Translations under genes and position numbers: made by a program | Shown here: one piece after another, positions 46,378 to 50,703 of the stretch | How the letters are laid out: each line of letters begins with the position of its first letter | Position numbering within the stretch: the stretch's first letter is position 1 | The notes under the pieces: model-generated | Told to the model about the DNA's origin: nothing | Seen by the model: the letters and a program-made list of their open reading frames with translations, nothing else | Database searches by the model: none | Origin: Polyangiaceae bacterium | GTDB lineage: Bacteria > Myxococcota_A > Polyangia > Polyangiales > Polyangiaceae | DNA length: 64,000 nt | Assembly (NCBI GenBank): GCA_019637295.1 | Contig: JAHBVX010000001.1 | Location: 595,501 to 659,500 of the forward strand | Reading direction: 5' to 3'

Positions 46378-46494
46378 GGTTCCTTAGTCGCACGCGCAAG
46401 CCAGCGAGTCGAGCCCCGCAGTACTCGCGCGCCGTGAGCTGCTGCGCAGCAGCGGCGTGGCACCCTGCGCGGGGGCAGTGTAGACTGCGTCCTC

Positions 46495-47229
46495 ATGGCA
46501 GCCCGTGCGTTGTGGTGTTGGGTCGGCGCGGTGACGGCGATGGTCGTCGTGGCGGCGTGTGGCAGCGACGAGCCCCTGGCCGCCGGGGACGCGAGCACGG
46601 CGGGGCTCGGCGGCTCGGCGGGGACCGGTGGCGGGGTGGACGCGGCGTCCGGCTCCGGCGGCACGCATACCGGCGGCAGCCCCGCGGACGCGGCTGCGGA
46701 CGCGCCCACCGACGCGCTGGCCGACGCGGGCAGCGACGCAGCCGCCGACGCGACGAGCGACGCGCTCGCGCAGATCGCGCCGGACTTCAGCTTGATGGAC
46801 GAGAACCCCGCTTCGGCGAGCCACGCTCAGCTCGTCTCACCCCGGGACTACCTCGGTACGGTGTCCGCCTGGTACTTCGGGCACGCTACTTGAGGCTACT
46901 GCAGTAGCCAGTTTGGCTACATGGACGCGATGCAGACGGAGCTCGACGCGACGAACACGAAGGTACCGATCCAGCTCCTGGGCGTGAACGAGACCGGGCT
47001 CGAGTCGGGCAACCCGACCATCACCAGCGGGCGCGCGCTGCCCTGGTTGCAGGACACCGCCGCGCAGAACGTGTGGCAGAGCTGGGCCGTCACCTATCGC
47101 GACGTGGTCGTGCTCGACGCGCAGAACTTCCCGGTCGCGGTGTACAACGTGACCACGCACGACCTCGGCGACCCGGCGAAGTACGCGGCGCTCAAGACGC
47201 TCTTGATCGACACGGCCAACGCGCAGTGA
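46495..47229 (+). CDS. predicted selenocysteine-containing thioredoxin-fold lipoprotein (in-frame TGA)
   Basis: The frame from ATG 46495 runs to 47229 with one internal TGA at codon 133 (46891-46893). Read through, it gives 244 residues: signal VVVAAC (Cys22), an Ala/Asp/Gly linker to ~95, then a thioredoxin-like domain (APDFSLMD...LGTVSAWYFGHAT-U-GYC). The TGA falls at the first position of a UGYC motif, where this fold normally has CxxC, and the frame beyond it continues with VIQLLGV-type and VVVLDAQNFPVA strands. A hairpin fitting a bacterial SECIS starts 10 nt after the TGA. An independent start at ATG 46921 would lack a ribosome site and half the fold. A pseudogene or sequencing error remains possible. 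It would act as an exported thiol/selenol oxidoreductase. Confidence 0.75.
46891..46920 (+). promoter_or_regulatory. candidate bacterial SECIS element following in-frame TGA
   Basis: GTAGCCA (46904-46910) and TGGCTAC (46914-46920) form a perfect 7-bp stem with the loop GTT. The loop starts 17 nt after the TGA and begins with G, within the spacing and loop rules I recall for bacterial SECIS models. An alternative, mutually exclusive pairing is the 16-nt palindrome GGCTACTGCAGTAGCC (46894-46909) directly after the TGA. The element is coding as well (GYCSSQFGY). Confidence 0.6.
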
Positions 47230-47236
47230 GCGGGCG

Positions 47237-48472
47237 TCAACCCGCCCTCGGCCGCCAGCCCTCGAGCGCGCGACGCACCAGCTCTAGGCGATCTTGACCC
47301 CAGAACACGTGCTCGCCGACGAGGAAGCTCGGCGCGCCGCACAGGCCGAGCTGCTGTGCTCGATCCGTGCTCTCTCGGAGCTGGTCCTTGATCGCCGGAT
47401 CTTCCGTGCGCGTGACGAGCTCTGGATCGTGTCCGGCGTGAGCGAGGATGTCGCGCAGAGAGTCGGGGCTCGAGATGTCGCGGTCCTGGGCCCACGCGGC
47501 GTGAAACAGCGTGCGGGTCAGCGGGCCGATTTGCTCACCCGCGGCCAGCGCGACGCGCAGCGGGGTAACGCTGCGGATGGGGAAAGTGGACGGAAACTGG
47601 AAAGGCACGCCGTAGCGCTTGGCGTGGCGGTCGATGTCCCGCGCGATGAACGCCTGCTTGGCCGCAGAGAAACCCAGCATGGGGACGTTGCTGGTGCCGA
47701 TGTTCTTGAACAGCGCGCCCAGCAGGAAGGGACGAAACACGACCCGGGCGCCGGCGGAGGTCGCCACGCGCTCGATCTGCGTGGACGCGAGGTACGCGAA
47801 GGGACTCGAGAAGTCGTAGAAGAACTCGACCTCGCCCACGCGACTGAGACCCTGGGGTAGCGGTGCGAGACCGAGCGCGCTCGCGTCGAGGCCGAGCGCC
47901 TCTGCGACGAAGTCCAGTCGGTCCTGACCCCAGTACAGCTCGCCGTCTACGAAGCACGCCGGCGCGCCGAACACGCCGCGGGCCACGGCCTCGTCGGTGC
48001 GCGCGCGCAGGTCGTCCTTGAAGCGCGGCTCGCTCGCGCGGCTCACCGCACCGGCGCCGTCGAGGCCCACGCCCTCGAGCGCGCGAGCGATCACGCCTTG
48101 ATCGCTCAGGTCGAGCCCCTCGCGCCAATACGCTGCGAAGAGCGCGTCCGAGGCGCGCGCGATGTCCCCGCTCGCGAGGGTGGCGCGCAGCGCCGTCACG
48201 GTGCGATTGGGGTGGGTCTTGGGCATCACCAGCGGCACGTCGAACAGCTCCGCGAAGCGCTGCATGTCGAGGCCGTTCAGGCGGGCGCGCGCCGCGCTCA
48301 TGGGCAGCACGTCGGGGGTCTCGCTGCCGAGCGCACGAAACACGCCCCCGAGCAGGAAGGGCCGGTGCTCCAGCGTCGCGCCCGCCGCGTCAGCGATGCG
48401 TCGCACCTTGGTGGAGGCGAGGTACGCGTAGGGGCAGGAGAAGTCGTAGTGAAACTCGAGCGTCTTCGTCAT
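47237..48472 (-). CDS. tandem DsbA-fold protein (HCCA isomerase / kappa-GST-like, two domains)
   Basis: A 411-residue protein of two homologous thioredoxin-fold domains with helical insertions (1-205 and 212-411), like 2-hydroxychromene-2-carboxylate isomerases fused head to tail. Active-site loops are FHYDFSCPYAYLAS in domain 1 and FFYDFSSPFAYLAS in domain 2: the residue before Pro is Cys in the first and Ser (as in HCCA isomerase) in the second. Each domain ends with GAPxxxVxxxxxWGQDRL. No signal peptide, so cytoplasmic; glutathione- or thiol-dependent chemistry is likely. The start MTKTLEF is at 48472; further upstream the frame is not coherent. Confidence 0.8.
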   Translation of the reverse strand: MTKTLEFHYDFSCPYAYLASTKVRRIADAAGATLEHRPFLLGGVFRALGSETPDVLPMSAARARLNGLDMQRFAELFDVPLVMPKTHPNRTVTALRATLASGDIARASDALFAAYWREGLDLSDQGVIARALEGVGLDGAGAVSRASEPRFKDDLRARTDEAVARGVFGAPACFVDGELYWGQDRLDFVAEALGLDASALGLAPLPQGLSRVGEVEFFYDFSSPFAYLASTQIERVATSAGARVVFRPFLLGALFKNIGTSNVPMLGFSAAKQAFIARDIDRHAKRYGVPFQFPSTFPIRSVTPLRVALAAGEQIGPLTRTLFHAAWAQDRDISSPDSLRDILAHAGHDPELVTRTEDPAIKDQLRESTDRAQQLGLCGAPSFLVGEHVFWGQDRLELVRRALEGWRPRAG

Positions 48473-48553
48473 CGCGGGGCCCAGACAGTCTACGCCCACA
48501 CCGGCCCGGGAGCGCCAGCTTGCGCGTCGGCGCGGCTGAAGTACGCTCCCGCC

Positions 48554-49352: not shown

Positions 49353-50036
49353 TCAGTCGCGCAAGAAGTGACAAGTATAGCCGCCGGGGTTCTTCTGCAG
49401 GTAGCTCTGGTGGTACTCCTCGGCGGGGGTGAACGAGGTCGCGGGAGTGATCTCGGTGACGATCTCCCGCGGCCACTTGCCGCTCGCGGCGACGCGCTCC
49501 TTCACATCGCGAGCGACTCGGGCCTGCGCATCGGAGGTGGTGAAGATCGCGGAGCGATACTGGCTGCCCACGTCGTTGCCTTGGCGGTTGACGGTGGTCG
49601 GGTCGTGCATGCGAAAGAACCACTTCTCCAAGAGCTCCTCGTAAGCGATGCGCTTCGGGTCGAACACGACGCGTATCGCCTCGGCGTGACCGGTCTGCCC
49701 GGTCTTCACCGTGTCGTAGCTGGGGTGCGGCGTGGTGCCGCCGGAGTAGCCCACCGACGTCTCTACGACGCCGGGCACCTTTCGCAAGATGTCCTCCATG
49801 CCCCAGAAGCAGCCGCCGGCCAGCAGCGCGACCTCGAGGCCCTCGCCGCAGCCGGGCTCGCTCGAGCGGATGCAGGTCCCGGCGAAGAGCGCGCTCGGCG
49901 CGGGCGCCGCGACCCCGGACGGCGCGCCCGCGCTCTCCGACTTCGGCGCGGACTGTCGGCTGCACGCGCCGGCCGTCGCGCCGATCGAGACCAAGAGCGA
50001 CCAGAGCAGCAGCCACAGACCTTGCCCGCGCATCAT
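49353..50036 (-). CDS. msrA: MsrA, peptide methionine-S-oxide reductase, lipoprotein form
   Basis: A 227-residue enzyme that reduces methionine-S-sulfoxide in proteins. The active-site Cys is Cys76 in GGCFWG; YSGGTTPHPSYDTV, TGHAEAIRVVFDP and YHQSYL are MsrA hallmarks. The start is the ATG at 50036 (MMRGQG), giving a signal and lipobox ATAGAC (Cys25), so repair would occur outside the inner membrane. It must be recycled by an exported thiol donor; a thioredoxin-fold lipoprotein candidate lies 2.1 kb away. Confidence 0.93.
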   Translation of the reverse strand: MMRGQGLWLLLWSLLVSIGATAGACSRQSAPKSESAGAPSGVAAPAPSALFAGTCIRSSEPGCGEGLEVALLAGGCFWGMEDILRKVPGVVETSVGYSGGTTPHPSYDTVKTGQTGHAEAIRVVFDPKRIAYEELLEKWFFRMHDPTTVNRQGNDVGSQYRSAIFTTSDAQARVARDVKERVAASGKWPREIVTEITPATSFTPAEEYHQSYLQKNPGGYTCHFLRD

Positions 50037-50145
50037 GCGCCAGTGTACGCGGCCGCCCGGGCCCGGGTTACACGGCTCAGCAGGCTCGTCGGCGTTTTGC
50101 GTCGAACCCCCTTTCGTGGAAGCCTGAGCCGAAAGGGAGCACGCC

Positions 50146-50703
50146 ATGTCGAGTCGAGCGCGCCCGGCGATCGGGCTGGCGATGGTGTTGAGCGGCTGCG
50201 GTCCCGACCGGGAGCCGCGGCTGCCCGAGCCAAACTTCGCGCTCGACACGCTGTCCAGCGAGAGCGTCGAGTGCGACGGCGCGTCGCGCTACGAGCCCGG
50301 TCACGGCTGTCGAAGCGTGTTCGAGCGCCAGAGCGCGCGCGTGGTGCTCGTCAACCGCATCGGAGGGGCGTTCCGCCTGGTCGCCGCCGGCGTTGGCATC
50401 GACGGTCGCGCGGTGTTTCGGGCGAGCGGAGAGGCGATGCTGGCGGGAGCCGAGCTCCCCGTGTTCGAGGGCGCGCTCAGCCCGGGAGCCCGCGAGGTTC
50501 ACGTGTCGCTCGTCCTTCGCGGCGAAGGGCAGGGCGTGTTCTCGTACCTGCGAGACTATCGCTTCAAGGTGGCGACCTGGCAGTCCGTCCGCGTCACCCG
50601 AGAGCCCGTGCTCCTGGAGCTGATCCTGTACGAGCGCGAAGGGGCGACGCGGCCCCTCGAAGACCGGCCCGCGCTGCGCATCGAGACCCAGGCGCTGCGC
50701 TGA
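50146..50703 (+). CDS. lipoprotein of unknown function
   Basis: A 185-residue lipoprotein with ribosome site GAAAGGGAG 6 nt before the ATG and signal ending MVLSGC (Cys18). Two Cys near residues 42 and 54 may pair. The rest is beta-rich (VVLVNRIGGAFRLVAAGVGIDG). No family recognised. Divergent from msrA, with 109 nt between starts. Confidence 0.6.
   Translation: MSSRARPAIGLAMVLSGCGPDREPRLPEPNFALDTLSSESVECDGASRYEPGHGCRSVFERQSARVVLVNRIGGAFRLVAAGVGIDGRAVFRASGEAMLAGAELPVFEGALSPGAREVHVSLVLRGEGQGVFSYLRDYRFKVATWQSVRVTREPVLLELILYEREGATRPLEDRPALRIETQALR

Follow-up and report, generated by a model that had tools for sequence, protein, structure and literature searches.

A predicted lipid-anchored thioredoxin-fold selenoprotein with a covarying SECIS hairpin in a Polyangiaceae genome

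The locus and its reading frame

The window, i.e. the whole 64,000-nucleotide stretch of a Polyangiaceae contig analysed here, holds at 46495-47229 (+) a single frame of 244 residues whose translation is interrupted only once, by a TGA at 46891-46893 (codon 133), before it terminates at another TGA (47227-47229). The two open stretches in one frame, parted by a single TGA, that the preliminary description had listed are exact on translation. The peptide across the interruption reads WYFGHAT-U-GYC and continues with SSQFGYM, and the frame closes with LIDTANAQ-TGA. At the N-terminus, MAARALWCWVGAVTAMVVVAAC, followed by GSDEP, matches the pattern of a lipoprotein signal peptide (46495-46560, +) with the lipobox VAAC at residues 19-22, a G directly behind it and a predicted lipidated Cys22 at 46558-46560. 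An Ala/Gly/Ser-rich low-complexity linker (46561-46767, +) comes next, and the remainder (46768-47226, +) is a thioredoxin-fold (redoxin_TUGYCR) domain, recognised by the NCBIfam model NF053656, by AlphaFold2 and by fold search. The lipoprotein reading proposed earlier is supported by the in-frame lipobox ahead of the linker. Among 53 family members of the class, a strict lipobox is found in frame in 29 and in the other two frames in none; the pattern, which also sets the start codon and the lipidation, predicts an exported, lipid-anchored protein.

Eight nucleotides before the start codon lies TAGACT (46481-46486, +), a weak candidate for a -10 element. A TANNNT ending 4-12 nt before the lipobox-supported start occurs in 25 of 67 members, while a control window yields 5 of 67; the first count is inflated by the many close relatives among the 67. 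The pattern suggests that the mRNAs of the window gene (46481-46494 upstream) and of other members may be leaderless.

The gene is on its own, flanked on one side by a universal stress protein gene and on the other by one with a double DSBA domain, each on the opposite strand. The latter (47237-48475, -) encodes a protein with two tandem DSBA-like domains, which we take to be of the 2-hydroxychromene-2-carboxylate isomerase kind. At 49353-50249 (-) lies an MsrA gene (PF01625) whose product has a signal-like N-terminus ending in GAC-S and may be a methionine sulfoxide reductase that is exported or anchored to lipid. No gene neighbourhood was conserved among family members beyond close Nannocystis relatives, so that the surroundings point to neither a partner nor a substrate; neither MsrA nor Usp was found near other members, which leaves a functional link to the nearby MsrA unsupported.

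The TGA codon, the selenium machinery and the SECIS hairpin

Family matches were found in 53 of the 318 genomes of the class. The codon aligned with 46891-46893, the first position of UxxC (U133), is TGA in 53 family members of the class; all close members have TGA, and more distant homologues have TGA, TGC or TGT. In genome_contigs, where the search patterns were built from both flanks with the codon itself left out, TGA occupies the position in 80 of 82 aligned copies; a scan of genome_contigs with the window protein as sole query gave no match, and the alignment-based scan succeeded. The only entries in the column that are neither TGA nor a Cys codon belong to two degenerate planctomycete paralogues with Ser (S..A), and since every other aligned member has one or the other, a chance TGA is excluded. 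The earlier proposal that the TGA takes the place of the first Cys of a CxxC therefore holds, and within the class no unrelated residue appears at codon 133, Ser being confined to the two planctomycete paralogues elsewhere. Loci L106 and L110 carry a second family copy near the Sec copy, with SLYA or SIYA in place of UxxC; these extra copies, having lost both redox residues, are possibly non-catalytic partners. The hosts include Myxococcota, Planctomycetota, Eisenbacteria, Krumholzibacteriota, Latescibacterota and Gemmatimonadetes; a plasmid search gave no match. In an unrooted tree, which gives no direction of change between Sec and Cys, one Cys clade falls, with starred support, within the Sec family, and in each of four related genomes of one family (G139, G140, G141 and G143) paralogues of both types, Sec and Cys, are present (loci L067-L070 and L066, L071-L073).

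The genome of the window (7.65 Mb, 98.5% complete) encodes SelA (479 bits), SelB (272 bits) and SelD (309 bits), each above its family cut-off, and a tRNA-Sec that scores 70 bits, above the gathering score, and is called tRNA-SeC with anticodon TCA (UCA) by ARAGORN; the check for sel genes proposed with the preliminary description thus came out in its favour. Across the class, selA is present in 43 of the 43 genomes with a TGA form, compared with 138 of 318 overall (Fisher P 3e-18, a value that ignores relatedness; the two genome lists were matched by hand), and in 3 of the 10 genomes holding Cys forms only. The SelD gene has a TGA of its own (VQGGGUARKL), making SelD a candidate selenoprotein itself. 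Elsewhere in the genome, two redoxins with in-frame TGA, L213 (G000:C12:456417-458017, HLGULPC) and L214 (G000:C12:897060-898660, HFGULFC), resemble the SelL-related redox family NF040769, one above the cut-off and the other just below, and L215 (G000:C7:108880-110480) combines the signal LALLGC with a TlpA-like domain in which an in-frame TGA gives VWUGPC, a candidate for a second exported lipoprotein selenoprotein of this genome.

Downstream of the TGA, the mRNA can form the hairpin GUAGCCA-GUU-UGGCUAC (46904-46920, +), a 7 bp stem with the apical loop GUU at 46911-46913, 17 nt after the UGA, and an energy of -8.5 kcal/mol alone and -10.0 kcal/mol with flanks. The published constraints on bacterial SECIS elements call for a stem of 4-16 bp, a loop of 3-9 nt with a G in its first two positions, a spacing of 16-37 nt and an energy of at most -7.5 kcal/mol (PMC13188914), and the window hairpin lies within every one of them. 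Under a somewhat tighter rule (5 bp or more in the stem, G then G or U), such a hairpin is found in 42 of 53 Sec members of the class, the other 11 failing the rule, and in 63 of 80 genome_contigs copies, compared with 2.9% of synonymous-codon shuffles of the Sec members and 0 of 12 Cys members. In 40 distinct sequences, a set that excluded members with shifted hairpins, pairing across the six stem pairs reaches 94.6% (66% when shuffled, 30-50% when slid), two-sided changes affect five of the six pairs (66 cells against 19 expected), and covariation scores 0.727 as opposed to 0.184 shuffled and at most 0.122 slid; with all 96 distinct sequences included, 93% of cells are paired and 27-50% when slid. 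Among the shifted hairpins is the CCCAGGU-CGUGC-ACCUGGG of the Sec copies L067-L070, with the loop CGUGC and a displacement of a few nucleotides. An Rfam search of the window had no match, and a plain fold of the 76 nt around the UGA was unexceptional (z -0.44); the informative signal is thus the local hairpin only, with its synonymous-codon and covariation controls.

Upstream and downstream of the TGA alike, dN/dS is below 1 in six of six comparisons; both halves of the frame are under purifying selection, in line with the coding character ascribed to them earlier. A nonsense mutation or sequencing error that turned TGC or TGT into TGA in a Cys-type gene would agree with the Cys codons of distant homologues, but the downstream half is constrained, the covarying SECIS is confined to the TGA forms and the same TGA stands in about 100 distinct homologous sequences, which makes sequencing error untenable; we reject this explanation for the family and see virtually no chance for it. 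Two separate genes, or readthrough free of selenium with another residue at the TGA or re-initiation at ATG 46921, could appeal to the presence of that ATG in the window copy. As the preliminary description had it, no ribosome-binding site is visible ahead of the ATG; it adjoins the 3' end of the hairpin and is not a conserved start, as a Leu codon takes its place in almost every homologue, on which ground re-initiation is rejected. The co-occurrence with selA is complete, and the gene's own terminator is TGA, so TGA still serves as a stop in this organism and a recoded genetic code is rejected as well; altogether, two genes or selenium-free readthrough seem very improbable. We infer Sec insertion at codon 133 and, leaving the substrate aside, have high confidence in reading 46495-47229 as a selenoprotein gene; its split by standard gene-calling software would hide a single gene for a predicted exported, lipid-anchored redox protein, almost certainly with Sec at the TGA.

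Family, fold and active site

The domain matches NF053656, 'TUGYCR motif thioredoxin fold (seleno)protein', with 228.9 bits over profile positions 2-145 of 146 (E 2e-68; curated cut-off 100 bits), as do all 49 aligned members, and the family is therefore already catalogued. The match covers the full domain (229-231 bits) and shares the TU(G/S)YC motif with Sec first; apart from the R of TUGYCR, which is Ser here and in many members, there is no substantial difference, and the model's name refers to the domain and says nothing of export, SECIS or mechanism. The family and its motif are absent from the main text of a 2026 review of prokaryotic selenoproteins (PMC13188914), and a search of the open-access literature, most subscription papers lying outside it, found no study of NF053656. 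As far as we found, the gene belongs to a family that is listed by NCBI and was never studied at the bench; new here are the SECIS covariation, the spread across phyla, the Sec/Cys paralogue pairs and an invariant Arg of the peroxiredoxin type. The uncommon arrangement claimed in the preliminary description consequently stands as regards the exported lipoprotein selenoprotein predicted here, but its rarity is reduced by the NCBIfam entry and by the second lipobox candidate of the genome, with UGPC.

AlphaFold2, given the 49-member alignment and with Sec modelled as Cys, predicts the domain with a pLDDT of 97.5 and a pTM of 0.92. U is domain residue 43, directly ahead of helix 1 (residues 44-61), in a domain of about 154 residues; the TGA does fall inside the thioredoxin fold, as proposed, but after its first quarter and not its first half. 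In searches with Foldseek and VIA-align, ResA/DsbE-like proteins come top (Z ~17) and peroxiredoxins next (Z ~16), with Etrx lipoproteins among the matches; a sequence search of the PDB returned no useful relative. Arg202 (47098-47100, +) is invariant in the 49 aligned members and takes the position of the TlpA-type Pro or peroxiredoxin Arg: within this genome's redoxins, Pro directly precedes strand 4 in most TlpA-type CxxC proteins, and Arg does so in the TxxC peroxiredoxins (L173-L177). In the alignment to the latter, the Sec lies opposite Thr and C136 opposite the peroxidatic Cys. The most distant subfamily, of GWUGYC type, does not retain the Arg.

Two accounts of the selenoprotein's chemistry have to be weighed against these observations. 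An ordinary thiol-disulfide oxidoreductase of the TlpA/ResA/DsbE type, acting on the disulfides of exported proteins, would have its best structural neighbours in ResA and DsbE-like proteins, its UxxC standing in for CxxC at the start of helix 1 and its predicted export and lipid anchor recalling those of the Etrx lipoproteins. The fold and the two-residue motif of that group are present, but the identity is 15-20%, Sec replaces the first Cys, the cis-Pro before strand 4 gives way to the invariant Arg and no conserved neighbours whatever accompany the gene; we rate this account as possible, at somewhat less than an even chance. Coming close to an even chance, a peroxidase-like UxxC relative of the peroxiredoxins, in which U133 would attack, C136 resolve and Arg202 stabilise the transition state, draws on the redoxin fold shared with AhpC/TSA and PrxQ/BCP, on the nearness of peroxiredoxins in structure, on the alignment of Arg202 with the Arg before strand 4 of the same-genome TxxC proteins and on a weak Pfam AhpC-TSA match; against it, the protein has UxxC and not TxxC, the Pfam score, 17.8, falls short of the cut-off, 26, and the Arg correspondence comes from a sequence alignment of low identity. 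A Prx-like UxxC thiol:disulfide oxidoreductase and UGC TlpA-type selenoproteins are listed as separate families in Table 1 of PMC13188914, and both, like the window protein, have a redoxin fold and Sec first in a CxxC-like motif.

The UxxC pair together with the invariant Arg makes for an active site that mixes thioredoxin and peroxiredoxin types. With the low-identity alignment behind it, the mixture hints at, but does not prove, a reductive enzyme whose chemistry resembles that of a peroxidase. More tentatively, and with the balance leaning against it, the family could be a distinct class of extracytoplasmic selenoenzymes that joins UxxC to a peroxiredoxin-type Arg, as a lipid-anchored selenol peroxidase or a reductase of another small oxidant.

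Proposed mechanism and wider meaning

With the frame, the conservation of the TGA, the sel machinery, the SECIS covariation, the predicted fold and the lipobox computed, a course of events can be proposed. When the ribosome arrives at UGA codon 133, Sec-tRNA(UCA) would be brought by SelB docked on the 46904-46920 hairpin, letting translation run on until the TGA at 47227. Export of the N-terminus, with cleavage before Cys22 and lipidation, would place the thioredoxin-fold domain, past its flexible linker, outside the cytoplasm. There, the domain may cycle between a selenol/thiol and a U133-C136 selenenylsulfide, with electrons presumably supplied by another extracytoplasmic thiol system. The chances that its reductive task would be to reduce an oxidant such as peroxide appear evenly balanced, and the reduction of protein disulfides is a contender of somewhat lower probability.

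For the biology of the group, the analysis assigns the gene to a large family that has received little study and in which Sec is the norm. The covarying SECIS with its AGUUU/AGUUC loop provides a ready search pattern for more members, and the Sec/Cys paralogue pairs of the four genomes offer a natural comparison of the benefit of selenium outside the cytoplasm. If the distinct class is real, enzymes with a hybrid active site would be at work in Myxococcota, Planctomycetota and related phyla.
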